Positions 44,335-60,219 of a DNA stretch of 64,000 nucleotides are shown in pieces; positions within the stretch are counted from its first letter, which is position 1; each line of letters starts with the position of its first letter. The stretch spans positions 858,520 to 922,519 of the forward strand of contig NZ_SPNT01000002.1 in assembly GCF_004959855.1 (NCBI RefSeq). Direction: 5' to 3'. The notes under the pieces were generated by a model. That model had not been told where the DNA came from. It did no database searches and worked only from the letters and a program-made list of their open reading frames with translations. Origin of the DNA: Nitratireductor sp. XY-223 (lineage in GTDB: Bacteria; Pseudomonadota; Alphaproteobacteria; Rhizobiales; Rhizobiaceae). The position numbers were made by a program, and so were the translations under genes.

Positions 44335-45351
44335 ATGGCGGCTGAACCGGTGCTTTTCGGCAGGACGCATGACGGGGAGCCGGTTCACAGCCTAAAGATC
44401 ACCGGCGGCGGGCTGACGGTCGACCTGATGAGCTGGGGCGCCGGCATTCGGGACCTGCGCATGGACGGGCACGATGCGCCGCTGGTGCTCGGCTTCGAGG
44501 AATTCGAACATTATCCGGTCCATTCGCCCTATTTCGGCGTGACAGCGGGCCGCTACGCAAACCGCATCGCGCATGGCCGCTTCACGATCGACGGCACCGG
44601 CCATCAGCTCGACCGCAATGAAAAGGGCGCCAACCACCTGCATGGCGGTACGCGCGGCATCGGCAGGCGGGTCTGGTCGATCGCAGAACATGGCGCGGAT
44701 TTCTGCCGTTTCGAGATCGCCGATCCCGACGGCCATATGGGCTATCCCGGCAATTGCGGCATTTCATGCACCTATCGCCTGAAACCGGGCGGTGTGCTGT
44801 CGGTGGTGCTCGAGGCCGAAACCGACCGGCCGACCCTGTGCAATCTCGCCCACCACAGCTATTTCAATCTCGATGGTGGCGACACCATTCTCGACCACGA
44901 GGCGATGATCGCGGCGGATCACTACCTGCCGGTCGACGGCGAACTGATCCCGACCGGCGAGATCTGCGCTGTTGCCGGTACGGAATTCGACTTCACCGAG
45001 ATGCGGCCGATCCGGTTGGGCGGGCGCGAGACGCCGTTCGGCTACGACCACAATTTCTGCCTCTCGGATGCACGCGGACCGAAGCGTGCCGTGGCGCTGG
45101 TCCGCAGCCTGTGCTCCGGCATCGCCATGGAAGTGTGGACGGGCGAACCCGGCCTGCAATTCTATACGGGACTGAAGCTCAACGTTCCCGTGCCGGGGCT
45201 GGACGGGCGCCGTTACGGATCCTGCGGCGGCTTCTGCATGGAGAGCCAGGTGTGGCCCGATTCCCCCAATCATCCGCAATTTCCGAGCGCGGTGTTGCGG
45301 CCGGGGACGCGCTTGCTGCAGGAAACGGACTATATTTTTTCCCGCGAGTAG
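44335..45351 (+). CDS. aldose 1-epimerase / galactose mutarotase family
   Basis: GRYANRIAHGRFTIDGTGHQLDRNEKGANHLHGG, AHHSYFNLDG. Confidence 0.92.
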   Translation: MAAEPVLFGRTHDGEPVHSLKITGGGLTVDLMSWGAGIRDLRMDGHDAPLVLGFEEFEHYPVHSPYFGVTAGRYANRIAHGRFTIDGTGHQLDRNEKGANHLHGGTRGIGRRVWSIAEHGADFCRFEIADPDGHMGYPGNCGISCTYRLKPGGVLSVVLEAETDRPTLCNLAHHSYFNLDGGDTILDHEAMIAADHYLPVDGELIPTGEICAVAGTEFDFTEMRPIRLGGRETPFGYDHNFCLSDARGPKRAVALVRSLCSGIAMEVWTGEPGLQFYTGLKLNVPVPGLDGRRYGSCGGFCMESQVWPDSPNHPQFPSAVLRPGTRLLQETDYIFSRE

Positions 45352-45460
45352 GCCGGTAAAACGCAACAATTGCAGATGCTTAAGTTTGTCCGCGGTGCAG
45401 CGCCGCGGGTGATCGCGCCGGCCTGCAGCTTGACAGGCGCGTCAGAGTAAGGCCCATTAA

Positions 45461-45478
45461 TATATATTATATAAGACT
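45461..45478. promoter_or_regulatory. operator site A (half-degenerate) upstream of the TRAP permease operon
   Basis: TATATATTATATAAGACT; right half-site identical to sites B-D; TTGACA at 45430. Confidence 0.6.
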
Positions 45479-45551
45479 CTGCGGCGGCGATGTCCCGTTT
45501 GGGAGGATGCGACATCTGCGCGGCCCGCGGACGTATTTGCGGGGGAGGATC

Positions 45552-46139
45552 ATGGCCGCGATTATCGCCATCATAAGACCGCTGGCATGGATCAACACGA
45601 TGCTGCTGCGCATCGGACGCAATATCGCCTGGGTGGCGATGGGGCTGATGGTGCTGATCATCGTTTTGCAGGTCGTCTTCCGCTACGTGCTGAACGACGC
45701 ATTGTCGTGGTCCGAGGAGGCGGCGCGCTTCCTGATGCTGTGGATGACGGCACTGATCGCGCCCAGCGCCTATCGTTGGGGCGGCTTCGTTTCGATCGAT
45801 CTTGTCCATGACATGCTGCCGAAACGTGTCGGCAGCATCCTGGCGCTGATCCTGCTGCTGATCAGCCTGATGGTGCTCGTTGTCGCTATTCAGCTCGGCT
45901 ACAACCACGTCAATTCCGGATGGCTGTTCGCTTCGCAAACGCTCAAGCTCGATCTGAGTTCCATGGGATGGGGAATCGTCCGCGTCAAGCAGGCCTGGAT
46001 GTACATGTCCGTGTTCGTGGGCGTCATCTTGCTGACGATCGTGAATATCGAGCTTTGCCTCAAAACACTCGCCGGGATCATCGATCCCACCCGTGAAGTG
46101 CCGGCGGACCAGGATCACCTGGTCATCACAGCGGAGTAG
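45552..46139 (+). CDS. TRAP transporter small permease (DctQ-like)
   Basis: VFRYVLNDALSWSEEAARFLMLWMTALIAPSAYRWGGFVSID. Confidence 0.93.
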   Translation: MAAIIAIIRPLAWINTMLLRIGRNIAWVAMGLMVLIIVLQVVFRYVLNDALSWSEEAARFLMLWMTALIAPSAYRWGGFVSIDLVHDMLPKRVGSILALILLLISLMVLVVAIQLGYNHVNSGWLFASQTLKLDLSSMGWGIVRVKQAWMYMSVFVGVILLTIVNIELCLKTLAGIIDPTREVPADQDHLVITAE

Positions 46140-46144
46140 GCCCG

Positions 46145-47434
46145 ATGCTGTTTTTCTTCCTTCCGCTGTTCCTCGTCTTCCTGATGGTCGGCCTGCCGGT
46201 GTTCTTCGCCCTGCTCGCTGCGCCGGGAATCCTGCTTTGGCTGGCCGATCAGCCGCGCGACTTCGCGCTGCTCTACAAGAACGTCTACAACGGCATGAAC
46301 TCGTTTCCGCTGATGGCCATTCCGTTCTTCATGCTGGCCGGCGAGCTGATGAACCGTGGCGGCATCACGCTGCGCATCGTCGAGTTCAGCCAGTCGCTGA
46401 TGGGGCACCTGCGCGGCGGGCTCGCGCATGTGAATATCCTGTCTTCGATGCTGTTTGCGGGCCTGTCCGGCTCCGCGGTGGCCGACACGTCGGCGCTGGG
46501 CTCGATGCTGATCCCGGCGATGGAGAAAAACGGCTATACCCGCAGGTTTGCAGCAGCCATAACCGCCGCGTCTTCGGTGATCGGTCCGATCATTCCGCCG
46601 TCCGGCATCATGATCATCTACGCCTATGTCATGGGCGAATCCGTGGCGGCTCTCTTCCTCGCCGGCATCGTCCCCGGTGTCCTGGTCGGCGTCGGCCTGA
46701 TGCTGATGACCGCCTATCTGGCGAAATCCAATGATTTCCCGGCAGCGGCGCCGCGCGCCAGTTACCGCGAACGCGGGCTTGCCTTCAACCGGGCGTTCTT
46801 CCCGCTGATGACGCCGGTAATCATTCTCGGCGGCATTCTGGCCGGTGTCTTCACGCCGACCGAGGCTGCCGCGGTTGCCGCCGTCTACGCCTTCATCGTC
46901 TCCATGTTCATCCTGCGGACGATGGTCTGGGCCGATCTGCCGCGGGTGCTGATCAAGGCGTCGCTGACGACGTCGGTCGTGCTGCTGCTGGTCGGTGCGG
47001 CGATGGCGTTCAAGACCGTGGTCAGCCTCAGTCACGCGCCGGAAATCCTTGCCGGGTTCATCCTGAGCCTGACGGAAAACCCGTATCTGCTGCTGTTCCT
47101 CATCAACGTGCTGCTGTTCATCGTCGGCATGTTCCTGGATGCCGGCCCGGCGATCATCATCCTCGGCCCCATCCTGGCGCCGATCTTCACGGACCTCGGT
47201 GTGCATTCCGTGCATTTCGCCATCATCATGAGCGTTAACCTGACCGTCGGTCTGGCCACGCCGCCCATGGGGCTGGTGTTGTTCGTGGCGTCGAGCGTCT
47301 CGGGGGTGAAGGTGGAGACGATCGCCAAGACGATCCTGCCGTTCCTGGCGGTCGAGATCCTGGTGATTTTCCTCATCACCTACTTCCCGCCGATATCCAT
47401 GGCGGTGCCGGAGTTCTTCGGCTTCATCAAGTAA
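46145..47434 (+). CDS. TRAP transporter large permease (DctM-like)
   Basis: FPLMAIPFFMLAGELMNRGGITLRIVEFSQSLMGHLRGGLAHVNILSSMLFAGLSGSAVADTSALG. Confidence 0.95.
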   Translation: MLFFFLPLFLVFLMVGLPVFFALLAAPGILLWLADQPRDFALLYKNVYNGMNSFPLMAIPFFMLAGELMNRGGITLRIVEFSQSLMGHLRGGLAHVNILSSMLFAGLSGSAVADTSALGSMLIPAMEKNGYTRRFAAAITAASSVIGPIIPPSGIMIIYAYVMGESVAALFLAGIVPGVLVGVGLMLMTAYLAKSNDFPAAAPRASYRERGLAFNRAFFPLMTPVIILGGILAGVFTPTEAAAVAAVYAFIVSMFILRTMVWADLPRVLIKASLTTSVVLLLVGAAMAFKTVVSLSHAPEILAGFILSLTENPYLLLFLINVLLFIVGMFLDAGPAIIILGPILAPIFTDLGVHSVHFAIIMSVNLTVGLATPPMGLVLFVASSVSGVKVETIAKTILPFLAVEILVIFLITYFPPISMAVPEFFGFIK

Positions 47435-47526
47435 CGGGGCCGGGAAACAGGGAACGGGAAACCACGAATATGGGCCGCAGGGCGTGCAGCAGAGCCTGTG
47501 CGCTTGACAAGCGACGGTCAGTCTTT

Positions 47527-47564
47527 AATCTTATATCTTATATAAGACTTACTTATATAGGACT
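47527..47564. promoter_or_regulatory. operator site B plus adjacent imperfect copy upstream of dctP
   Basis: AATCTTATATCTTATATAAGACTTACTTATATAGGACT; perfect palindrome TCTTATATAAGA at 47536-47547; TTGACA at 47504. Confidence 0.7.
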
Positions 47565-47592
47565 GCCTGCGATTGACTTCGGGAGGATCCAA

Positions 47593-48687
47593 ATGATCGC
47601 GAAAGGGACTGCAAAATTCTTGGGCGCATTGGCGCTCGGCCTGTCGATGACCGCCATGTCCACCGTAATGGACGGAGCGATCACAACCGCCGGAGCCGCC
47701 GATTTCAAGCTGCGCGCGACCGCCAACTCGAACGAAAACGACGAAGACTATGACGGTCTGATCGTTTTCAAGGACTATGTCGAAAAGGCATCCAACGGCG
47801 CCATCGAAGTCGAGCTGTTCATCGGGACGCAGCTTTGCTCCAACGGCGCGGAGTGCCTGCAGGGCATCTCCGACGGCACCATCGATATCTATATCTCCAC
47901 CTCCGGCGGTGCGTCGGGCATCTTCCCTTACGTGCAGGTGCTCGATCTGCCCTATCTGCTGCGTGACGACCGGATCGCCGAAGAGGTGCTGAGCGAAGGC
48001 AGCTTCACGCGCGCACTGCGCGATCTGGCGCTTGACGATTCGGGTGGAACGATCCGCCTGATGACCATCGGCAACACCGGCGGCTGGCGCAACTTCGCCA
48101 ACACCAAGCGGCGGGTGCAGTCACCGGGCGACATGGAAGGCCTGAAGATTCGCACGGTGGTCGCCGACCTGCCGCAGGAACTGGTGAAGGCGCTCGGCGC
48201 GTCGCCGACGCCGATCCCGTGGCCGGAGCTGTTCACGTCCTTCCAGACCGGGGTCGTGGAAGGTTCGAAGAACGGCATTACCGACATCATGGGCATGAAG
48301 TTCCCGGATGCCGGCCTGAAATACGTGACCCTCGACGGCCACGCCTATATGGGCGCGTTGTGGTGGATGAGCAACGACACCTTCATGTCGATGCCTGAAG
48401 ATATGCGCCGCGTCGTGGTCGACGGATTTGCAGCATTGCAGCAGGCAACCTTCGCCTCGCCCAAGCGCAAGTCCATCCAGGCCTATTCCGATTTTGTCGC
48501 AGAAGGCGGAGACCTCTATGTGCCGTCGCCTGAGGAAAAGGCTGCCTTCAAGGAGGCCGCGGCGCCGGTCTATGAATGGTTCAAGGCCAATATCGACAAC
48601 GGCGAGGCCGCATTCGTCGCGCTGACCGAGGCCGCCTCGGGTGCCGAGGCGAAAATCGACGGCAATGCCGATATGGACATCAAATAG
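47593..48687 (+). CDS. TRAP transporter substrate-binding protein (DctP-like)
   Basis: Signal peptide; NFANTKRRVQSPGDMEGLKIRTV; LPQELVKALGASPTPIPWPELFTSFQTGVVEG. Confidence 0.93.
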   Translation: MIAKGTAKFLGALALGLSMTAMSTVMDGAITTAGAADFKLRATANSNENDEDYDGLIVFKDYVEKASNGAIEVELFIGTQLCSNGAECLQGISDGTIDIYISTSGGASGIFPYVQVLDLPYLLRDDRIAEEVLSEGSFTRALRDLALDDSGGTIRLMTIGNTGGWRNFANTKRRVQSPGDMEGLKIRTVVADLPQELVKALGASPTPIPWPELFTSFQTGVVEGSKNGITDIMGMKFPDAGLKYVTLDGHAYMGALWWMSNDTFMSMPEDMRRVVVDGFAALQQATFASPKRKSIQAYSDFVAEGGDLYVPSPEEKAAFKEAAAPVYEWFKANIDNGEAAFVALTEAASGAEAKIDGNADMDIK

Positions 48688-48735
48688 GCGGACCCGAACG
48701 GTTTCGGGCACTGCCCGAACCTGACGGACGAACAC

Positions 48736-48763
48736 AAAGGCCGCACACACCGTGCGGCCTTTT
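48736..48763 (+). terminator. Rho-independent terminator after dctP
   Basis: AAAGGCCGCACACACCGTGCGGCCTTTT. Confidence 0.85.
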
Positions 48764-48786
48764 GCGTACGGACCGGATGATAACCT

Positions 48787-49278
48787 TCAGCGGAAGGGGT
48801 ACATCCAGGGTTTGTAATCATTGATGAGGATCTGCGCGTGCTCAATCTGATCGGGCGTCATTTTCTTGACCACTTCCTCGAGGCTGATCGCCGCATCCGG
48901 GTCGCCGCCGATCGCCGAGAGCACGTACCACATGTAGGCGCGCACCAGGTCGGGCTGCGGCATGCCGCGTCCGATCTCGTAATACCAGCCGACGCCCGAC
49001 TGCGCGCCGGGGTGCCCCTTCATCGCCGAGCGCAGATACCATTCGAAGGCGCGCACGTCGTCGCGCGGAACGCCAAGGCCCATGGCGTACATGATGCCAA
49101 TCAGTTCCTCAGCGTCGGCGTTTCCCGACCGGGCGGCCGGAAGCAGTTCCTTCATCGCCTCCTCGAAGCGGCTTTCCTCCATCAGGTCGCGGGCAGACTC
49201 TATGTCCGCATGCGCCGGCGCTGCGGAAACAGCACCCGCGAAAACCAGCGCCGCGATGAAACTGACCGATTTGCCCAT
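48787..49278 (-). CDS. Sel1-repeat / TPR secreted protein
   Basis: Signal peptide; GNADAEELIGIMYAMGLGVPRDDVRAFEWYLRSAMKGHPGAQSGVGWYYEIGRG. Confidence 0.82.
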   Translation of the reverse strand: MGKSVSFIAALVFAGAVSAAPAHADIESARDLMEESRFEEAMKELLPAARSGNADAEELIGIMYAMGLGVPRDDVRAFEWYLRSAMKGHPGAQSGVGWYYEIGRGMPQPDLVRAYMWYVLSAIGGDPDAAISLEEVVKKMTPDQIEHAQILINDYKPWMYPFR

Positions 49279-49320
49279 ATGCCCTCAATCTCCCTTGCAA
49301 CCAGCCCCGGCGGGGCCGCC

Positions 49321-50697
49321 GTGTTGAATACGAAGCATAGCAAGCGCCGGGGCACGGGCAAGCTCTCTGCCGCCGTCGGCGCTCTCTTTGTCCTGTTTAT
49401 TCCACCGGTTGCCGTGGCCGGCGACGTGGAGGGCGCAAAGCTGCCGCCGATGCTGTCGGAAGCGGACTTCCTGCCCTTCGACGAGAAGCGGGCGGCGCTC
49501 GGGCGTCTGCTGTTCTACGATCCGGTCCTGTCCGGCAACCGCAATATCTCTTGCGGCACCTGCCACCATCACACCCTGGCCGGCGCCGACGGGCTGGCGC
49601 TGGGGGTCGGCGAGGGCGGCGACGGCATCGGAGAGAAAAGGACAACGGGCACCGGCCGCGACAGGATCGACCGCAGGGTCCCGCGCAATGCGCCGGCCCT
49701 GTTCAACATCGGCCACAAGGACATCCGCCACCTGTTCCACGACGGCCGGTTGAGCATCGACAACCTTTACGGAAACGGTTTCAATTCGCCGGCCGAGGAA
49801 TACCTGCCGCAAGGGCTGAGCAGCCTCGCGGCGGCCCAGTCGCTGTTTCCGATGACGTCCGAGACGGAAATGGCCGGCCATTCGGAAGAAAACGCCATCG
49901 CCGGCGCGCGCAACGACCGGATCGATCACGCCTGGCGGCTGATTGCCCGGCGGGTCAGTGCGGTTCCCGCCTACGGACCGTTGTTTGCGGACGCTTTCGA
50001 CGATATCGAAAGCCCGGCGGATATCACGATCGTGCATATCGGCAATGCTATCGGCGATTTCGTCAATTCGGAATGGCGCTCCTATGACAGCCCCTTCGAC
50101 CGGTACCTTGCCGGCGACCGCGCTGCGTTGAGCAGCGATGCTCAGGCGGGGATGGACGTTTTTTACGGCCGCGGCGGCTGCGCGGCCTGTCACGGCGGCG
50201 CGCTGCTGACCGATCAGGATTTCCACGCGCTGGCGCTTCCGCAGTTCGGGCCGGGGCGCACGCGGATGTTCGACCTGATGCAGCGCGACGTTGGGCGCAT
50301 GGTGGAAACGGACCGCCTGGAGGATGCCTACCGCTTCCGCACGCCGTCGCTGCGCAACAGCGCACTGACCGCGCCCTATGGTCACAACGGCGCATACGCG
50401 ACGCTGGAAGGCATCATTCGCCATCACCTCGATCCGCAGACGGCGTTCGACCGCTGGAGCCGCAAGGAGGTGGCGCTGCCGGCGGCCGAGCATCTGGCGG
50501 AAGCGGATTTTGCACCTCTTGCGGACAGGCGCGAGCGGTTGCGTGTGCGGTCGGTTGTCGACATCGAGCCGGTTTCGCTCGGCGACGACGAGGTGCGGCA
50601 GCTGATCGCATTCATCCATTCCCTGACAGGCGCGGAGAGCGTTAAGGGAAGACTTGGCCGGCCGGATGAGGTGCCGAGCGGATTGCCGGTTGACTGA
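49321..50697 (+). CDS. di-haem cytochrome c peroxidase / MauG family (alternative start 49279)
   Basis: Two CxxCH: CGTCHHH and CAACHGG; VPRNAPALFNIGHKDIRHLFHDGR. Confidence 0.88.
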   Translation: MLNTKHSKRRGTGKLSAAVGALFVLFIPPVAVAGDVEGAKLPPMLSEADFLPFDEKRAALGRLLFYDPVLSGNRNISCGTCHHHTLAGADGLALGVGEGGDGIGEKRTTGTGRDRIDRRVPRNAPALFNIGHKDIRHLFHDGRLSIDNLYGNGFNSPAEEYLPQGLSSLAAAQSLFPMTSETEMAGHSEENAIAGARNDRIDHAWRLIARRVSAVPAYGPLFADAFDDIESPADITIVHIGNAIGDFVNSEWRSYDSPFDRYLAGDRAALSSDAQAGMDVFYGRGGCAACHGGALLTDQDFHALALPQFGPGRTRMFDLMQRDVGRMVETDRLEDAYRFRTPSLRNSALTAPYGHNGAYATLEGIIRHHLDPQTAFDRWSRKEVALPAAEHLAEADFAPLADRRERLRVRSVVDIEPVSLGDDEVRQLIAFIHSLTGAESVKGRLGRPDEVPSGLPVD

Positions 50698-50743
50698 GCC
50701 CGTTGCCGGTGCCGAACTGGGAACTGCATTTCACGGAAAATCC

Positions 50744-50770
50744 AGTCTTGTATCTTATATAAGACTTGAT
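50744..50770. promoter_or_regulatory. operator site C upstream of the kinase-aldolase operon
   Basis: AGTCTTGTATCTTATATAAGACTTGAT; perfect TCTTATATAAGA at 50753-50764. Confidence 0.7.
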
Positions 50771-50804
50771 AGATTGCAGCCCAAAGGAGGCCAGCCTCGC
50801 CGCC

Positions 50805-51710
50805 ATGAAAACCGTTCTCGTAGCCGGTTCAGCCGTGATCGATTTTATTTTCCACCTCGATGAACCACCGTCCTGGACGGAGAAGCACCGGGCGCGGGAA
50901 GCCGCCATTGTCGGCGGCGGATGTGCGGCCAATGCGGCCGTCGCGATTGCCCGGCTCGGCGGCAAGGCCGTCCTGTCGGCGCGGCTCGGGGACGACATGA
51001 TCGGCGACATGATCCTGTCCGGCCTCGACGAGGAAGGGGTCGACCATTCGCTGGTCAAGCGGTTTGCCGGCCGGCGCTCGTCCTATGCCTCGGTGCTGGT
51101 CGATCAGACCGGGGAGCGCTGCATCATCGGCTATCGCGACAACGGTATCGATGCCGGCGATCCCTGGGTGGAACAACTGGAGCTGCCGCCTTTTGAGGCG
51201 GCGCTCGCCGACACGCGCTGGCCCGAGGGCGCCTGCGTCATGATGCGGACCGCGCGCCAGCGCGGGGTGCCCGGCGTCATGGACGGCGAAGCGCCGCTCG
51301 GCGATTCCGACGCGGCGCTCAAGCTGGCGAGCCACGTTGCCTTCTCGCAGCCCGGGCTCAGCCACTATGCCGGCAGCGACGACCTGGAAGACGGACTGAA
51401 ACGGGCGGCCGGCGAAACCGGGGCCTTTGTCTGCGTGACCGTCGGCGAAGGCGGGGTGCACTGGCTCGAGGACGGGGCGCTGCGGCACATGCCGGCTTTC
51501 GCGGTCGACGTGGTCGACACGCTCGGGGCCGGCGATGTCTGGCACGGCGCCTTCACCCTGAAACTTGCCGAAGGCGCCGGCGAGGAGGAGGCCATGCGTT
51601 ATGCCGGTGCCGCCGCGGCGCTGAAATGCACCCGTTTCGGCGGCCGTTCGGGAACGCCCGGCGCTGAAGAGGTGAACTCATTCCTCATGGAGAACAGCTT
51701 ATGCAACTGA
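50805..51710 (+). CDS. PfkB family sugar kinase, YihV (6-deoxy-6-sulfofructose kinase)-like
   Basis: VGGGCAANAAVAIARLGGKAV, GVMDGEAPLG, HVAFSQPGLSHYAG, VDVVDTLGAGDVWHGAF, AALKCTRFGGRSGTPG; strongly resembles E. coli YihV as remembered. Confidence 0.75.
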   Translation: MKTVLVAGSAVIDFIFHLDEPPSWTEKHRAREAAIVGGGCAANAAVAIARLGGKAVLSARLGDDMIGDMILSGLDEEGVDHSLVKRFAGRRSSYASVLVDQTGERCIIGYRDNGIDAGDPWVEQLELPPFEAALADTRWPEGACVMMRTARQRGVPGVMDGEAPLGDSDAALKLASHVAFSQPGLSHYAGSDDLEDGLKRAAGETGAFVCVTVGEGGVHWLEDGALRHMPAFAVDVVDTLGAGDVWHGAFTLKLAEGAGEEEAMRYAGAAAALKCTRFGGRSGTPGAEEVNSFLMENSLCN

Positions 51711-52747
51711 CGGCGGGAAAGCTCTGGGGCCTGCGGCGCATGGCGGACGATGCCGGGCGCTTCAAGATGACGGCGGTCGACCAGCGCCCGCCGATCAAGA
51801 ACCCGATCGCCGCGCACTACGGCGGCGACGAAGCCCCCTATGACGATGTCGCGCGCTTCAAGGCACTGTTGATAGAGACGCTGCAGGGCCAGTCCTCGGC
51901 GATGCTGCTCGATCCCCACTACGCCGTTCCGCGCGGCATTGAATACCTGTCCCCGACCAAAGGGCTGATCGTCACCCTCGAGGACTCCCTGTTCCAGGAG
52001 ACTCCGGACGGCCGGCTGTCGTCCGACATCGACGACTGGTCGGTGGGCAAGATCAAGCGCATGGGGGGCGACGCGGTCAAGGTGCTGGCCTGGTACCGGC
52101 CGGACGCGTCGGCGTCCGTCAACGGGCATCAGCAGGATTTCGTCAAGCGGATCGGCGAGGCCTGCGCCCGTTTCGACATCCCGTTCCTGTTCGAACTGCT
52201 GGTCTATCCGCTGTCGAGCGATGCCCACCAGACGAAGGACTATGTCGAAATGCAGGGCAAGAAGGCCGACGACGTCCTGGCCTCGGTGGCGGAGTTCGCC
52301 AAGCCGGACTACGGCGTCGATGTCTTCAAGCTGGAAAGCCCCGTCAATGCTGGCGATGTCCCCGGCGTCGGCAATGATGGCTGGGAGGCGGTGCAGTCCG
52401 TCTATGACGACATGGGACGATTGGCCGGCCGGCCGTGGGTGATGCTGTCGGCGGGCGCCGGCAAGCCGCAGTTCCGAAACATCCTGAGCCATGCCTACCG
52501 GGCCGGTGCATCCGGCTATCTTGCCGGGCGGGCGATCTGGCTCGACGCGTTTTCCGAGTTTCCCGACTGGGATCTTATACGCGACGGCCTCACTGGTGAG
52601 TCAGTCGACTATATGAAAGATTTGAATGCCCTGACGGACAGCGAGGCGGCGCCGTGGCACGCGCATCCGGCCTTTGGTGAGGGCGGCGCGCGGTTCGCCC
52701 CGAATGACGCCGGTTTCCGGCACGCCTACGGGGATATCGCCCGATGA
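51701..52747 (+). CDS. class I aldolase of LacD/YihT family (candidate 6-deoxy-6-sulfofructose-1-phosphate aldolase)
   Basis: RFKMTAVDQRPPI, DVFKLESP (Schiff-base Lys region), WVMLSAGAGKPQFRNILSHAYRAGASGYLAGRAIW; overlaps the kinase stop. Confidence 0.7.
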   Translation: MQLTAGKLWGLRRMADDAGRFKMTAVDQRPPIKNPIAAHYGGDEAPYDDVARFKALLIETLQGQSSAMLLDPHYAVPRGIEYLSPTKGLIVTLEDSLFQETPDGRLSSDIDDWSVGKIKRMGGDAVKVLAWYRPDASASVNGHQQDFVKRIGEACARFDIPFLFELLVYPLSSDAHQTKDYVEMQGKKADDVLASVAEFAKPDYGVDVFKLESPVNAGDVPGVGNDGWEAVQSVYDDMGRLAGRPWVMLSAGAGKPQFRNILSHAYRAGASGYLAGRAIWLDAFSEFPDWDLIRDGLTGESVDYMKDLNALTDSEAAPWHAHPAFGEGGARFAPNDAGFRHAYGDIAR

Positions 52748-52764
52748 CGGGATGGTCTCCGGAA

Positions 52765-53355
52765 CTAGTCCAGCAGCAGGCGGGCGACCACATCCAGCGC
52801 CGGTCCTTCGGACCCGCTGTTGCGCGCCGGCGCGACAATGACCGCTTCTCCCTGCCGCGGTGCGATGCCCGTCAGCGCCTCGACATTTTCGGGATGGGTG
52901 ACCATGACCTGGTTTCCGGGTCCGCGAAACTGGCGGATGATCTCGATGACCTCGTCGTTCCTGCGCGCAAGCAGGTCCGGGTCGTCCTCGACCAGGTCGA
53001 GCGCTTCAATGGGCTCGGCCTCGACATCGCGAAAGGCGTTGGCGGCGGTTTCCAGCGTGCGGCACCACTGGCTGGAATAGATCCGCGATATCGACACCGC
53101 GCGAGCGGCAAAGCGGACGCCGCGCCTGCGCGCCTGCTGGCGCCCTCGGTCGGAAAGGTTGCGCTGCGTGGTGCAGTCGTCAAGCTCGAAAAACGGCGGG
53201 TCGCCGACACCCGGAGCCAGCGCGTGGGTCAAGAGGATCGTGTAGCCGCCGGTGGCAAGTCTTGCCCAAGCCGCCTCCGTTGAACCCGCCTTGGACGCAA
53301 CAAATGAGAACAGAACAACTACAAGGGCGGCAAAGGCAGAGGGACGTCGTTTCAT
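52765..53355 (-). CDS. histidine phosphatase family protein with altered RHG motif
   Basis: TILLTHALAPGVGDPPFFELDDCTTQRNLSDRGRQQAR, YSSQWCRTLETA; Thr replaces the Arg before the catalytic His. Confidence 0.75.
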   Translation of the reverse strand: MKRRPSAFAALVVVLFSFVASKAGSTEAAWARLATGGYTILLTHALAPGVGDPPFFELDDCTTQRNLSDRGRQQARRRGVRFAARAVSISRIYSSQWCRTLETAANAFRDVEAEPIEALDLVEDDPDLLARRNDEVIEIIRQFRGPGNQVMVTHPENVEALTGIAPRQGEAVIVAPARNSGSEGPALDVVARLLLD

Positions 53356-53398
53356 ACAGCGGCTCCGATACCGAATATACTAGGAGTTTAATCGGCAA

Positions 53399-54793
53399 AT
53401 GAAAGAGGTACAGACAATAGGTGTGCTGCCGCTCGGTCGGCCGACATTCGATGTCGCCTTTGCCGAAGAGAAACTCGCCGCCATGTTGAACGCTCTTGCC
53501 GCAACGGGCAAGTCACTGATTGGCCCGCGCAAACTGCTGATGGACAGCAACGAGACGGAGGCGGCGATCGACAGCATGGCGGCGGCCGCGCCGGATGCCG
53601 TCCTGATCCTGCAGGTCACCTTCACCGACGCGGTCGCAACGATGCGTATCGCCGGGGTCTTCGACACGCCGATCGCCATCTGGGCGGTGCCCGAACCGCG
53701 GCTTGGCGGACGCCTGCGGCTCAACGCGTTTTGCGGCCTCAATCTCGCATCCCATGCGCTCGGACGCGCGCAGCGGGCGTTCTCCTGGATTTATGCGAAT
53801 CCGGACAGCGAACATATCGGCTCGGAACTTGAAACACTGTTTGACGGCACGCGGCAGACGAAGCCCCTTCCCGAAACCCCGCCCAGTGGCGGCAGCGAGG
53901 CCGGGCGGCAGATCGCGGCCGGACTCGGCGGCAAGCGCATCGGCCGCATTGGTGCCCATCCGGATGGTTTCGATACCTGCCGTTACGATGCCGATCGGCT
54001 GCGCAATCTCGGCATCGAGGTCGACGAACTGACGCTGCAGGACCTGTTCGATGCCGCGAAAAAGGTGCCGGATGCGGAACTTGCCGGTATTCGCGAAGCG
54101 GCGGAATCGGACCTTGAGGGTCTCGACGATGTCGATCAACAGGAGCTCGACCGGTCGCTGCGCCTGAAGGCGGCGATCGAGGTGCTCCGGGGCCGGGGCA
54201 AATACGATGCCTTCGCGATCCGCTGCTGGCCCGAAACCTTCACCGAGTATGGCGGCGCTGTGTGCGGGCCGGTTTCGATGATGGGCGAGGTGCGCGTTCC
54301 CTGCGCCTGCGAGGCGGATGTCTACGGCGCGGTCACGCAAATGCTGCTTCAGACGGTGGCCGACGCACCTGTTTTCCTGGTGGATCTCGTCGATATGGAC
54401 CCGATCGGCGACACCGGCGTTGTCTGGCACTGCGGCCAGGCACCGGTGTCGATGGCGGATCCCGCGAAAAGGCCGGAGGCGACGATCCACACCAACCGCA
54501 AGATGCCGCTGCTCTACCAGTTCAAGCTGAAACCCGGGCGCGTCACTTTCATGCGACTGAGCCAGGCACGCGGTGGCCAGGCGATGATTGTCGCCGCCGG
54601 CGAGGTGCTCGATCAGCCGATGGCCTTTACCGGGACATCGGGTGTCGTTCGTTTCGACCGGCCGGTTAAGGAAGTCCTTCCGGATATCATGGACGCAGGC
54701 CTCGAGCACCACATGGCGCTGGCCTATGGCGACCACGGCGAAACACTTCTTGATGTGGCCTCGGCACTCGATCTGCCCGTCATCCGACTTTGA
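53399..54793 (+). CDS. L-fucose/L-arabinose isomerase-like family protein
   Basis: 464 aa; IGVLPLGRPTFDVAFAEEKLAAMLNAL, AFAIRCWPETFTEYGGAVCGPVSMMGEVRVPCACEADVYGAVTQMLLQ. Confidence 0.75.
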   Translation: MKEVQTIGVLPLGRPTFDVAFAEEKLAAMLNALAATGKSLIGPRKLLMDSNETEAAIDSMAAAAPDAVLILQVTFTDAVATMRIAGVFDTPIAIWAVPEPRLGGRLRLNAFCGLNLASHALGRAQRAFSWIYANPDSEHIGSELETLFDGTRQTKPLPETPPSGGSEAGRQIAAGLGGKRIGRIGAHPDGFDTCRYDADRLRNLGIEVDELTLQDLFDAAKKVPDAELAGIREAAESDLEGLDDVDQQELDRSLRLKAAIEVLRGRGKYDAFAIRCWPETFTEYGGAVCGPVSMMGEVRVPCACEADVYGAVTQMLLQTVADAPVFLVDLVDMDPIGDTGVVWHCGQAPVSMADPAKRPEATIHTNRKMPLLYQFKLKPGRVTFMRLSQARGGQAMIVAAGEVLDQPMAFTGTSGVVRFDRPVKEVLPDIMDAGLEHHMALAYGDHGETLLDVASALDLPVIRL

Positions 54794-54806
54794 GAGCAAC
54801 GAACAG

Positions 54807-55892
54807 ATGAGCACTATACGCTACGCAATAATCGGCTCGGGCATGATGGGGCAGGAGCATATCAGGAACCTCGCCCTCATCGACGGTACGCAGGTCAGCG
54901 CCGTCGCCGATCCGAACAGCGAGATGCGCCGGCGGGCGGCGGAACTGGCCGGACCCGGCTGCGCGGCGTTCGATCATCACGGCGCGCTGCTCGCGGCGGG
55001 CGGCTTCGACGCGCTGGTCGTCGCCGCGCCCAACCATTTGCATCGGCCGATCCTCGACGATGTCCTGAAGGTGGATGTTCCGCTGCTTGTCGAAAAGCCG
55101 CTCGGCCTCGACGGGCCGCAATGCCGTGAAATCATGGCGACCGCGAACGGGCGGCGCGCACCGGTTTGGGTGGCGATGGAATACCGCTACATGCCGCCGA
55201 TCGCCCGGCTGCTCGACGAAGTGCGCAAGGGATCGGCCGGGGTTCCGAGAATGATCGCCATTCGCGAACACCGGTTTCCGTTCCTGAGCAAGGTCGGTGA
55301 CTGGAACCGCTTCCAGGACCAGACCGGCGGCACGATGATCGAAAAATGCTGCCACTTCTTCGACCTGATGCGACTCGTCTCCGGCTCCGAGGCCGTCCGG
55401 GTCTATGCGTCCGGTGGCATGGACGTCAATTTCCGCGACGAGACCTTCGGCGGCCGCAAGGCTGACATTCTCGACAATGCATTCGTGATCGTCGATTTCG
55501 AAAACGGCATGCGCGCAATGCTGGATCTGTGCATGTTCGCGGAGGGCGCCTACTGGCAGGAAACTGTCAGCGTGACCGGAGACAAGGCGCGCATCGACGC
55601 CCATGTTCCGGGACCGGCCCGTTTCTCCACTGACGGGCGCGAACGCCACGCCAGGCTGGTGATCTCACCGCGCGACACGAAGGCGCCCGTCAGCGAGGAC
55701 ATCGTGACGGACGAGGCGATCCTGTCCGCCGGCGACCACCATGGTTCCACCTTCTACCAGCACGAGAGATTCGCACGGATCGTCCGTGAAGGCGGTTTGC
55801 CGGAAGTTTCGATGGATGACGGCGCGCGGGCGGTCGAGATCGGCGCGGCGGCGGAAGAATCCGCGAAAACGGGAATGCCGGTGACGCTCTAG
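54807..55892 (+). CDS. Gfo/Idh/MocA family oxidoreductase
   Basis: IRYAIIGSGMMGQEHIRNLALIDGTQVSAVADP, VVAAPNHLHRPI, LLVEKPLG. Confidence 0.92.
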   Translation: MSTIRYAIIGSGMMGQEHIRNLALIDGTQVSAVADPNSEMRRRAAELAGPGCAAFDHHGALLAAGGFDALVVAAPNHLHRPILDDVLKVDVPLLVEKPLGLDGPQCREIMATANGRRAPVWVAMEYRYMPPIARLLDEVRKGSAGVPRMIAIREHRFPFLSKVGDWNRFQDQTGGTMIEKCCHFFDLMRLVSGSEAVRVYASGGMDVNFRDETFGGRKADILDNAFVIVDFENGMRAMLDLCMFAEGAYWQETVSVTGDKARIDAHVPGPARFSTDGRERHARLVISPRDTKAPVSEDIVTDEAILSAGDHHGSTFYQHERFARIVREGGLPEVSMDDGARAVEIGAAAEESAKTGMPVTL

Positions 55893-55899
55893 AAAATTG

Positions 55900-56634
55900 T
55901 CACGGCAGGCTGACGGTATAGTGCATGGCGCCGGTCAGGCAGCGCGATGTGCGCAACTCCACCGCCTTGCCCTCGAGGTCGCGGGCTATGCGGGTGATCA
56001 GCAGCAGCGGTTCGCCGACCCCGCAGCCGAGCGCGGCCGAATCGCGCTCGTCGCACAGGATCGCCTTGAGTTTCTCATCGGCCTTGGCGATGGTGATCCC
56101 CCAGCGGGTGGAGTACAGCCGGTAGATGTTGTTCGGAATCTCCGACAATTGTCCAAATCCGGGGTAGATGGCCGAGGGAATGGTGATCGTCTCGGCGATC
56201 ACCGAACTGCCGGCCATCAGGCGCACCCGCTCGATGCGCCAGACCGGATCGTTCGGAGCGATCGCCAGCGCCTCGGCTTCCTCGCGGCTGGCCGGTTCCT
56301 GCGACGAACACAAAAGGCGCGAATCGGGAAAGCTGTCTTCATCGCGCTTGTCGTCCGACGTCAGCCGGAAAAACTGGAACAGGATGCGCGCGTCCTCCGG
56401 CTCCGCGACGAAGGTGCCGCGGCCCTGCTGGCGCACGAGCAGGCTCTCGGCCGTCATCGCGTCGAGCGCCTTGCGGACAGTGCCCTGGCTCACTTTCAAT
56501 TCGCGGGCGAGGTCCTGTTCGCTCGGGATGTTCGTGCCCGGTTGCCATGTGCCGTCCACAAGGCGGCGGATGAGCTGGTCCTTGACCTGTGCGTAGAGCG
56601 GCTTGAAGCCGATATTCGTGTCGGTATCCTGCAA
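55900..56634 (-). CDS. GntR family regulator with UTRA domain (HutC type), candidate regulator of the sulfonate locus
   Basis: PLYAQVKDQLIRRLVDGTWQPGTNIPSEQDLARELKVSQGTVRKALDAMTAESLLVRQQGRGTFV plus UTRA; TTG start inferred. Confidence 0.88.
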   Translation of the reverse strand: MQDTDTNIGFKPLYAQVKDQLIRRLVDGTWQPGTNIPSEQDLARELKVSQGTVRKALDAMTAESLLVRQQGRGTFVAEPEDARILFQFFRLTSDDKRDEDSFPDSRLLCSSQEPASREEAEALAIAPNDPVWRIERVRLMAGSSVIAETITIPSAIYPGFGQLSEIPNNIYRLYSTRWGITIAKADEKLKAILCDERDSAALGCGVGEPLLLITRIARDLEGKAVELRTSRCLTGAMHYTVSLP

Positions 56635-56698
56635 TGGCGGCCCCTTGATTTGCGTGTCTTTGTTTAGCCCGATCCGGTTGACAACGCCAGCATGTTGT

Positions 56699-56720
56699 AT
56701 CTTATATAATATATAAGACT
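56699..56720. promoter_or_regulatory. operator site D between the GntR gene and suyA
   Basis: ATCTTATATAATATATAAGACT, near-palindrome of two half-sites; TTGACA at 56678. Confidence 0.7.
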
Positions 56721-56763
56721 TGGCGCGAGAGCGCCGAGATTTCTGGCTATTTTGGAGGCAAGC

Positions 56764-57051
56764 GTGAGTATCCCGCAACTGCTGGTGCACGACCGCAAGG
56801 ACAATGTCGGTGTTGTCGTTGTGGAAAATCTGACCGCCGGCACGAACATGACCTGTGTCGTGACCGAGGACGATTCGGATTTTGAACTGACATGCAACGA
56901 TGACGTTCCCATCGGCCACAAGGTGGCGCTCCAGGATTTTTCCGTCGGCGACACGATCATCAAATATGGCGAAGACATCGGCAAGGTCGTCGCGGCCGTC
57001 AAGAAAGGCGGCCATGTCCACACCCACAACCTGAAAACCAAGCGCTGGTAG
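56764..57051 (+). CDS. suyA: (R)-sulfolactate sulfo-lyase small subunit (UxaA/SAF domain)
   Basis: 95 aa; [28 protein letters not shown]...[30 protein letters not shown]; immediately precedes suyB. Confidence 0.82.
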
Positions 57052-57061
57052 GAGGCTGAAC

Positions 57062-58228
57062 ATGTCGCGAACGATCATGGCGTACCGGCGTGAAAACGGC
57101 CGGGTCGGTGTGCGCAATCACGTTGTCATCCTGCCGCTCGACGATATCTCGAACGCGGCCTGCGAGGCGGTTGCGAACAACATCAAGGGTACGATGGCGC
57201 TGCCGCATTCCTACGGCCGGCTGCAGTTCGGCGAGGATCTCGACCTGCATTTCCGCACGATGATCGGCACCGGGGCCAATCCCAATGTGGCGGCGGTCGT
57301 CGTTATCGGCATCGAGCCGGAATGGACGAAGGTTGTTGTCGACGGCATCGCCGAGACCGGAAAGCCGGTGACCGGCCTTTCCATCGAGCAGAACGGCGAT
57401 ATCGCAACCGTTGCGGCGGCCTCGCGCATTGCCAAGGACTATGTGCACTGGGCGACCGAGCTGCAGCGCGAGGCATGCGACATCTCCGAATTGTGGATCT
57501 CGACCAAATGCGGCGAGAGCGACACCACCACGGGCCTGTCCTCATGCCCGACGGTCGGCAACATGTACGACAAGCTGTTGCCGGAAGGGATCTACGGCTG
57601 CTTCGGCGAGACCTCGGAAATCACCGGCGCCGAGCATCTTTGCGCCGAGCGTGCCGCCAATCCGGAGGCCGGCGAGAAGTTCATGCGGATCTGGCAGGCG
57701 TACCAGGACGACGTGATCGAGGCGCACAAGACGTCGGACCTTTCCGACAGCCAGCCGACCAAGGGCAATATCCTCGGCGGGCTGACGACGATCGAGGAAA
57801 AGGCGCTCGGAAACCTCGAGAAGATCGGCCGCACGTCACGCTATATCGACGCGCTCGGGCCTGCGGAAAAGCCGCAGATGGGCAACGGGCTCTACTTCAT
57901 GGACACATCGTCCGCCGCTGCCGAATGCGTGACGCTGATGGCGGCCGCCGGTTATGTCATCCATACCTTCCCGACGGGGCAGGGCAATGTCGTCGGCAAC
58001 CCGATCGTGCCGGTTATCAAGATCTCCGGCAATCCGCGGACCTTGCGTACGATGAGCGAGCACATCGATGTCGACGTGACGGGTGTCCTGCGGCGCGACA
58101 TGACCATCGACCAGGCCGGCGATGCGCTGATCGACATGATCGCGCGCACGGCCAACGGGCGCAACACGGCTGCCGAGGCGCTGGGCCACCGCGAATTCGT
58201 GATGACCAAGCTTTACCGAAGCGCCTGA
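57062..58228 (+). CDS. suyB: (R)-sulfolactate sulfo-lyase large subunit (UxaA C-terminal family)
   Basis: 388 aa; [120 protein letters not shown]. Confidence 0.85.
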
Positions 58229-58276
58229 TCCGTGAGACAGTCGCGCCGCGCCGGTGTCGACTTGCTGGAAAACCCG

Positions 58277-59212
58277 ATGGCCAAAATCGTTATCACCGAA
58301 TTCATGGATGACGCGGCTGTGGCTGCGCTGGCGCAGCGTCACGAAACCCATTACGACCAGGGGCTTGCGGACCGCCGGGAGGAGATCGTTGCGCTCGCCG
58401 CGGATGCCGCCGCTCTCATCGTGCGCAACCGCACGCAGGTGAATGCCGGGCTGCTCGACGCGGCGCCGGGTCTCAAATGCGTCGGGCGGCTGGGAGTCGG
58501 CCTCGACAATATCGACCTGGATGCCTGCAAGGAACGCGGTGTCGCCGTCTATCCGGCGACGGGTGCTAACAATGCGAGCGTTGCCGAATATGTCATCGCC
58601 AACGCCATGCTGCTTTTGCGCGGTGCCTATCAGTCAACCGAGGCAATGCTTCGCGGCGACTGGCCGCGCCAGGATCTGATGGGCCGCGAGCTCGCGGGCC
58701 ACACATTGGGACTGGTCGGATTCGGCGCGATCGCCCGCGAGGTGGCGGTGCGCGCCGGCGTGCTCGGCATGGACATCGTGGCGCACGATCCGCACCTGAT
58801 GGCCGACGATCCGGGCTGGCAGATCGCCCGCAACGTGTCGCTGGACGGTCTTCTGGAACTGGCCGACGTCATCAGCCTGCACACGCCGCTCAACGATGCG
58901 ACACGGCACATGATCGATGCGGACGCGCTCAACAAGATGAAAGCGGATGCGATCATCATCAATGCCGCGCGCGGCGGCGTGATCGACGAGGAGGCGCTGG
59001 CCTCGGCGCTGGCCCACGGCCGGATCGGCGGCGCGGCGCTGGACGTCTTCGATACCGAGCCGCTGACCGCGGAGGCCGCGATGAAATTCAGCGGCCTGAA
59101 AAACATCGTCCTGACGCCGCATATCGCAGGCGTGACCAAGGAATCGAACATCCGCGTCAGCGCGTTGACCGCGCAGAACGTCCTCAACCATCTCGCAGGG
59201 GCGGGGTCCTGA
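58277..59212 (+). CDS. slcC: D-2-hydroxyacid dehydrogenase, probable (S)-sulfolactate dehydrogenase
   Basis: KIVITEFMDDAAVAAL, VGRLGVGLDNIDLDACKERGVAVYPATGANNASVAEYVIANAMLLLRGAY, LTPHIAGVTKESNIRVS; context with suyAB and comC. Confidence 0.8.
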   Translation: MAKIVITEFMDDAAVAALAQRHETHYDQGLADRREEIVALAADAAALIVRNRTQVNAGLLDAAPGLKCVGRLGVGLDNIDLDACKERGVAVYPATGANNASVAEYVIANAMLLLRGAYQSTEAMLRGDWPRQDLMGRELAGHTLGLVGFGAIAREVAVRAGVLGMDIVAHDPHLMADDPGWQIARNVSLDGLLELADVISLHTPLNDATRHMIDADALNKMKADAIIINAARGGVIDEEALASALAHGRIGGAALDVFDTEPLTAEAAMKFSGLKNIVLTPHIAGVTKESNIRVSALTAQNVLNHLAGAGS

Positions 59213-60219
59213 TGGCGCAGACGGGCGAACGGCTCAGCACCGATGCGGTGCACACGCTGATCAGCGGCGCGCTGAAGCGGAGCAACACATCACAGAGGAA
59301 TGCCGCGCGCGTCGCCGATGCGCTGCTTGCGGCGGAACTTGCCGGGCAAAGGGGCCACGGACTGCGCCGGGTTCCGACCTACGCGGCACAGGCAGCCGCC
59401 GGCAAGGTCGACGGCCACGCCGATCCGAGCCTCGAACAGCACAGGCCCGGCGCCGCGCTTGTCGATGCCGCGAACGGTTTCGCCTATCCCGCCATTGCGC
59501 TTGCAGACGACTGGCTGGCGGAAACCTGTCCGGTGCAGGGCATTGCCGTGGCCGGAATCACCCGCTCGCACCATTGCGGCGTTGCCGGCGTCATCGTGGA
59601 AAAGCTGGCCGAGCGCGGGCTTGTTGCCATGCTCTTTGCCAACACGCCGGCGGCGATGGCGCCCTGGGGCGGTAAGCGCGCCCTTTACGGAACGAACCCG
59701 ATCGCGTTCTCGGCACCGCTCGCCGACGGCGATCCGATCACCGTCGATATTTCCCTGTCGCGTGTGGCACGCGGCAAGATCATGGCGGCCAACCAGAGCG
59801 GCGATCCCATCCCCGAAGGATGGGCGTTCGATGCCGACGGCGCGCCGACGACCGACGCGACGGCGGCGCTCGCCGGAACGATGGCGCCGCTGGGCGATGC
59901 CAAGGGGACGGTCCTGGCGTTGATGGTCGAACTGCTGTGTGCCGGTCTGACCGGCGCCAATTACAGCTATGAGCAGACCTCGTTCCTGAATGCCGAGGGC
60001 GGACCGCCGGGCGCGGGGCAGACGCTCATAGCCATGGACCCGGGTCTTTTCGGCAAGGACGCGCGGGCGCGATTCGGGATCATGGCCGGAATGATCGCGG
60101 AGACCGAGGGCGCCCGGCTGCCGGGCCGCCGGCGGCAGGCGCTGCGTGCCGAACTCATTGCCAACGGCATTCCTGTCGATCCTGGACTGCTGGCCGACAT
60201 CGAGGCGATCGGGACCTGA
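59212..60219 (+). CDS. comC: Ldh-family (malate/L-lactate/sulfolactate) dehydrogenase, probable (R)-sulfolactate dehydrogenase
   Basis: GHGLRRVPTYAAQAAAGKVDG, ITRSHHCGVAGVIVEKLAERGLVAMLFANTPAAMAPWGGKRALYGTNPIAFSAP; overlaps slcC. Confidence 0.8.
   Translation: MAQTGERLSTDAVHTLISGALKRSNTSQRNAARVADALLAAELAGQRGHGLRRVPTYAAQAAAGKVDGHADPSLEQHRPGAALVDAANGFAYPAIALADDWLAETCPVQGIAVAGITRSHHCGVAGVIVEKLAERGLVAMLFANTPAAMAPWGGKRALYGTNPIAFSAPLADGDPITVDISLSRVARGKIMAANQSGDPIPEGWAFDADGAPTTDATAALAGTMAPLGDAKGTVLALMVELLCAGLTGANYSYEQTSFLNAEGGPPGAGQTLIAMDPGLFGKDARARFGIMAGMIAETEGARLPGRRRQALRAELIANGIPVDPGLLADIEAIGT

Follow-up and report, generated by a model that had tools for sequence, protein, structure and literature searches.

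A single AT-rich switch stands before each of four gene groups in Nitratireductor sp. XY-223 (Rhizobiaceae) and very likely allows one repressor to induce jointly the uptake and the complete breakdown of sulfoquinovose, a plant sulfonate sugar; switch and repressor also occur together in dozens of related bacteria. The four sites lie in a 64,000-nucleotide stretch of contig NZ_SPNT01000002.1, hereafter the window, and precede genes for a tripartite ATP-independent periplasmic (TRAP) transporter (dctQM and dctP), a sulfofructose kinase and aldolase, and a suyAB-slcC-comC operon. The candidate repressor is the divergently encoded GntR/UTRA protein next to suyA, here called SuyR. We put at about 85% the probability that the four sites are operators of SuyR, a repressor that a three-carbon (C3) sulfonate would release, co-inducing uptake, cleavage by the sulfo-Embden-Meyerhof-Parnas (sulfo-EMP) route and desulfonation.

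Proposed operator sites and their conservation

The recurrent strings are found where the preliminary description of this DNA had placed them, i.e., TTATATAAGACT at 45467, TATCTTATATAAGACT at 47534 and 50751, and ATCTTATATAATATATAAGACT at 56699, with the imperfect copy ACTTATATAGGACT at 47551 beside the 47534 site, and TTGACA hexamers do lie upstream of three of them (45430, 47504 and 56678). Relative to the genes, the four sites all point the same way. Operator 1 (45456-45478, + strand), upstream of dctQM, has its core TATATTATATAAGACT at 45463, 28 nt after TTGAC (45430), and scores 26.6 bits. Operator 2 (47527-47564, + strand), upstream of dctP, scores 29.9 bits and combines the helper half-site AATCTTA with a core at 47534, 25 nt after TTGAC (47504), and with a second, weaker palindrome, TTACTTATATAGGACT, at 47549-47564. 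Operator 3 (50744-50767, + strand), upstream of the kinase gene, consists of the helper AGTCTTG and the core at 50751, in a context (TCTTG-core-TTGATAGATTG) that is kept in related kinase promoters. Operator 4 (56698-56721, + strand; TATCTTATATAATATATAAGACTT), between gntR and suyA and thus also 5′ of gntR, stands 15 nt after TTGAC (56678) and overlaps the -10 region.

In pattern scans of the whole genome (59 contigs, 6.19 Mb), the motif turns up in this cluster and nowhere else; the outcome that would have refuted the proposal of one regulon, a motif common at unrelated genes, did not arise. TATATAAGACT has four matches, every one at these four promoters, exact TCTTATATAAGA has two, both within the cluster, and the degenerate TRTMWKATAYAAGA has seven, all at the four sites, against two for the reversed control. 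Allowing up to two mismatches, TCTTATATAAGA matches six times in the window, compared with 0.11 expected in shuffles. Imperfect sites at C58:57777-57807 precede an acyl-CoA dehydrogenase/CoA-ligase operon and were rejected as a misfit to the core.

Footprinting of the suyA promoter, in the window and in 26 orthologous GntR loci ranging from Hoeflea to Fulvimarina and drawn from one collection scan, gives strong support to the one-regulon reading. The regulator gene adjoins suyAB in 25 of the 26, and the site is present in 27/27 loci, between gntR and suyA or, in the one locus without a nearby suyA, upstream of gntR. The gap from TTGAC to the site is 15 nt in 24/27 loci. Positions 14-16 and 18-21 of the 24-mer are invariant, and the most invariant portion is the downstream arm ATAxAAGA, past the -10 box (27/27 at most positions). 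From TTGAC to the core, the distance is 22 nt for suyA, 25 for dctP and 28 for dctQ, a promoter-specific value kept across genera: the dctP gap recurs in six other genomes and the dctQ gap in three. The repeat had been described as a palindrome; it stands as a repeat, but the TATCTTATATAAGACT string itself is only partly palindromic, and it is best summarised as a 14-16-bp palindrome, (A)GTCTTATATAAGAC(T), with a half-site TATCTTA(T/G) 7 bp upstream that overlaps the -10 region. PMC4494728 describes GntR-family palindromes with extra half-sites at 7-12 nt from their centre. The promoters do not conform to a plain TTGACA-N17-TATAAT arrangement, and the -10 boxes can be placed no closer than in or next to TATCTTATAT.

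SuyR and its relatives

SuyR (55903-56634, - strand) has an N-terminal helix-turn-helix (PF00392, 6e-20) and a C-terminal UTRA domain (PF07702, 2e-28), the HutC-type architecture. Its link to the motif was assessed with the degenerate pattern in 299 genomes of the family, and the motif occurs in 50 of the 52 that have a GntR ortholog vs 41 of the 247 that lack one (Fisher p = 5e-29, related genomes being non-independent samples). The reversed pattern gives 45/247 in the GntR-negative genomes, so that the motif rate there is no more than background, and 6/52 in the positive ones. The two GntR-positive genomes without a site have weak GntR matches (42-45% identity) and also lack suyB. In all 35 genomes listed, gntR is preceded by the site at a distance of 68-183 bp. 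The site is retained at three suyAB copies that are not linked to gntR, and it is missing from suyAB operons without SuyR, among them one of a congener and second copies inside SuyR-positive genomes. This second, motif-free operon type, seen near TRAP dctM-like genes at 12 loci and coexisting with the SuyR type in three genomes, perhaps serves another C3 sulfonate. The recognition helix VSQGT[VA]RKAL (VSQGTVRKAL in the window) is invariant in all orthologs checked and in four diverged regulators (35-38% identity) that stand beside suyAB with the same core or its TCTTGTAYAAGA variant; none of this genome's other UTRA-type GntR matches contains it. Together, the co-occurrence, the absence of the site without SuyR and the invariant helix support the earlier assignment of the regulon to the adjacent GntR/UTRA protein.

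The motif class itself is known. PMC4494728, citing Suvorova et al. 2012, gives SdhR, a HutC-subfamily GntR regulator, the predicted motif TCTTATGTCTTATATAAGACATAAGA and lists it as an exception to the subfamily consensus NyGTMTAKACNy. The SuyR operator does not fit this consensus either, since its core CTTATATAAG lacks GT...AC and equals the SdhR core, and HutC membership of SuyR therefore rests on its domains. Most SuyR sites add the helper TCTTATR 7 bp upstream of the core that they share with TCTTATGTCTTATATAAGACATAAGA, one locus carries the SdhR consensus itself, and the helix VSQGTVR is common to both regulators. Among 398 Pseudomonadota genomes, 22 have a perfect core, mostly beside regulators of this clade (SuyR with suyAB, SdhR-like proteins with mdh, and others). 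In the tree, regulators beside perfect cores form one supported SuyR/SdhR-type clade (99/99), outside which fall the other UTRA-type GntRs of this genome that entered, and SuyR stands apart from the mdh-linked branch. The two also differ in neighbourhood: SdhR-like genes adjoin mdh, while SuyR adjoins suyAB and sulfoglycolysis genes. SuyR is a separate branch of the SdhR clade that would control a different regulon, real and apparently undescribed; no such sulfonate regulon was found in the literature searched, which has few subscription papers.

Two further observations concern this clade. First, a Rhizobiaceae genome bin (G006) has an SdhR-like regulator, 37% identical to the window SuyR, that stands with an mdh-prpB-gltA-sdh cluster and shares its operator with the bin's own SuyR, an arrangement that reflects either horizontal transfer or a contaminating contig; its mdh site was considered as a stray SuyR target and rejected, being the promoter of the SdhR-like paralog. 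Second, perfect GTCTTATATAAGAC sites near weakly prpB-like genes, at three loci in other members of the phylum, suggest that this operator class serves a third regulon.

Several known systems invite comparison. CsqR/YihW of E. coli is a DeoR-family protein, another DNA-binding type than SuyR. The two are alike in the local control of sulfo-EMP genes (PMC10991401), but the E. coli pathway terminates in dihydroxypropanesulfonate (PMC12890257) and, unlike that of the window, has no suyAB. The name SuyR has been given to a regulator gene of suyAB clusters (PMC6018796), to which we liken ours by gene neighbourhood, adjoining suyAB with slcC and comC; no binding site for it was found described in the literature searched. 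DasR and NagR, HutC-type regulators acting at dre sites (PMC4918961, PMC4333415), resemble SuyR in domain architecture, as best PDB matches and in their short palindromic operators. They differ in the helix (SRTTVR in DasR, SQGTVR in SuyR) and in the operator, as NagR operators have GG contacts and SuyR sites the core CTTATATAAG.

Mode of control and competing explanations

We propose that a dimer of SuyR, as a HutC-type protein of the SdhR-like clade, binds the (A)GTCTTATATAAGAC(T) palindrome, while the helper half-site that covers the -10 box probably attracts one more subunit. Bound at or just past the -10 box, SuyR would keep dctQM, dctP, kinase-aldolase and suyAB-slcC-comC from being transcribed, and gntR itself would probably be blocked as well. 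The signal that frees SuyR from the DNA would be a C3 sulfonate inside the cell, i.e., sulfolactate or its neighbours sulfolactaldehyde or sulfopyruvate, with joint induction of uptake, sulfo-EMP cleavage and desulfonation. Repression by occlusion has the best support: the sites cover the -10 region or follow it closely, and the regulator belongs with DasR and NagR.

Several points weigh against this reading. The kinase promoter (operator 3) lacks TTGAC and a -35 match, and in operator 4 the inner left half-site is degenerate in this species (TAATAT), so that what remains is a 19-bp palindrome, TCTTATA-TAATA-TATAAGA. Neither the isomerase gene nor that of SqgA has an operator of its own, and both sit behind an opposite-strand gene (52765-53355), so that their control has to be assumed to occur by read-through. 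The non-independence of related genomes tempers the co-occurrence statistics, the motif does not identify sulfonate genes beyond this lineage, since further bacteria have it at SdhR-mdh and elsewhere, and activation in place of repression is possible.

The most serious competitor concerns the ligand. DasR and NagR, both UTRA regulators, respond to sugar phosphates. With these two as precedents (PMC4333415, PMC4918961; effectors from general knowledge), and with sulfo-EMP genes and SqgA in the window regulon, SuyR could sense a sugar, that is, sulfoquinovose, sulfofructose or a phosphorylated form, a possibility to which we give perhaps one chance in four. However, most orthologous loci have SuyR with suyAB and without sulfo-EMP genes, which occur in only about a third of the 26, and in Sinorhizobium and Chelativorans a module of the Entner-Doudoroff (ED) type replaces the upstream module, the C3 end alone being constant. 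A C3 sulfonate is the likelier inducer because suyAB is the constant partner while the sugar module varies, and because relatives add soeABC, another transporter and another upstream sugar pathway. Of the ligands named earlier for a binding assay, sulfoquinovose and sulfofructose are less likely inducers than a C3 sulfonate.

It is quite improbable that the sites serve a different regulator, be it an SdhR paralog or a GntR of the FCD type, while the adjacent protein has another role. The HutC-type SdhR is predicted to bind the same sequence and coexists, as an SdhR-like protein, with SuyR in G006, and an FCD GntR gene stands beside some of the uxu-type sites described below. Nevertheless, SuyR is the only member of the VSQGTVR clade in this genome (the next best GntR/UTRA protein is 31% identical to it and falls outside), the site adjoins SuyR wherever mapped, and FCD genes are missing from the surroundings of some uxu sites. 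Slightly less credible still is the idea that the conserved strings are mainly AT-rich -10 boxes of similar promoters and no operator. It would explain why the upstream half-site TATCTTAT keeps a fixed spacing from TTGAC, about that of a -10 box, and why the four sites share an orientation, but not why the greatest invariance lies in the arm beyond the -10 box, why the core stays constant while its distance from the -35 box varies by promoter, or why the motif tracks SuyR and is missing from suyAB promoters without it. Chance recurrence of AT-rich words, to which the eye is drawn in GC-rich DNA, is already refuted by the excess over shuffles, the exclusivity in the genome, the retention in 27 loci and the tracking of GntR.

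The cluster, its extensions and their meaning

The genes between the sites read as a route for uptake of sulfoquinovose and its complete breakdown to pyruvate, triose phosphate and sulfite, as far as homology can tell. On the + strand are the TRAP genes dctQ (45507-46139) and dctM (46145-47434), with PF04290 and PF06808, and dctP for the solute-binding protein (47593-48687; PF03480), a PfkB sulfofructose kinase of the YihV kind (50805-51710; best PDB match the sulfofructose kinase 7ag6, E 1.8e-67), and a class I aldolase of the LacD/YihT kind (51701-52747), by homology the candidate sulfofructose-1-phosphate aldolase. These two place the cluster in sulfo-EMP, and the candidate sulfoquinovose isomerase (53399-54793, + strand) is of the fucose-isomerase family, not YihS-type but related to SftI (NF048012, E 6.5e-88, below the curated cut-off), so that the cluster is, on its gene content, a hybrid. 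SqgA, an NAD-dependent sulfoquinovosidase of family GH188 (54807-55892, + strand), matches 8qc3 and 8qc2 (E about 1e-109; 8.5e-110 for 8qc3); its RFPFLSK aligns to RFPFLHK, conserving the sulfonate-contact residues R/L/K of RFPFLxK (R166/L170/K172; PMC10755693, PMC11465081). The putative functions of suyA (56764-57051), suyB (57062-58228), slcC (58232-59212) and comC (59212-60219), all on the + strand, are sulfolactate epimerisation and desulfonation. Names here follow families, homology and synteny, and SuyAB, whose matches are to the broader galactarate/altronate dehydratase family and fall short of equivalog cut-offs, is named from its split subunits and synteny. No sulfolactaldehyde dehydrogenase (SlaB/GabD type) was noticed among the genes at 45.5-60.2 kb, the genome not having been searched for it. 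Two neighbours keep their places in relatives: the 52765-53355 gene (- strand), histidine-phosphatase-like with a signal-peptide-like start, holds its position between kinase-aldolase and isomerase-sqgA in many of them, and a galM-type aldose 1-epimerase (44335-45351, + strand), which lies just 5′ of the TRAP genes and itself has no operator, may be a sulfoquinovose mutarotase.

In other genomes the same site precedes a tripartite tricarboxylate (TTT) transporter and soeABC-like sulfite dehydrogenase genes, and lies between a sugar ATP-binding cassette (ABC) transporter and an HpcH aldolase/gluconolactonase pair, an ED-type module resembling the sulfofucose ED cluster of PMC12421959. That Paracoccus tandem sulfofucose-sulfolactate sulfolyase pathway shares with the window SlcC/ComC/SuyAB downstream of sulfosugar cleavage, and the Chelativorans and Sinorhizobium clusters it names resemble our loci L079 and L080; it differs in that its upstream module is ED, and no regulator or site is treated there. 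When soeA promoters were scored with a symmetric matrix at a 12-bit threshold, 9/20 GntR-positive vs 0/20 GntR-negative genomes reached it (p 0.0006). The soeABC promoter of the window genome has a weak, degenerate site, TATAATATAGAAGACC (13.8 bits), similar in two congeners, which is either a weak regulon member or a decaying site. SuyR-type sites also precede, at six loci, an ABC transporter/uxuAB-like module (mannonate dehydratase, fructuronate reductase) whose binding protein is 80-96% conserved. Among genomes with a close UxuB, a linked site occurs in at least 9 of 14 SuyR-positive ones and none was seen in the checkable SuyR-negative ones; the substrate could be either an ordinary hexuronate or a sugar acid with a sulfonate group. 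A match in G003 (C102:1177063) is within a gene and was taken as chance.

A wider scheme, which we offer tentatively and consider less likely than not by a good distance, is that SuyR descends from the SdhR-type clade, has kept its ancestral operator and now senses organosulfonates. One cis code would then unite interchangeable upstream pathways (sulfo-EMP, ED-type), transporters, desulfonation and sulfite oxidation by soeABC under a C3-sulfonate signal, and there might be an unrecognised uxuAB-like sulfonate pathway. Because SdhR-type paralogs read the same DNA, cross-regulation of sulfonate and tricarboxylic acid cycle genes is possible where both occur.

Control of sulfoquinovose and sulfolactate breakdown has been little studied outside E. 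coli, and the word "regulator" is absent from a 2026 sulfoquinovose review. A defined operator and its regulator offer a handle on pathway genes missed by homology, such as transporters and the sulfite-oxidising soeABC. With them the identity of the inducer can be tested directly, and a biosensor for sulfolactate or sulfoquinovose could follow. Finally, the operator shared by SuyR and SdhR provides a clear case of paralogs that kept their DNA specificity while their regulons changed.

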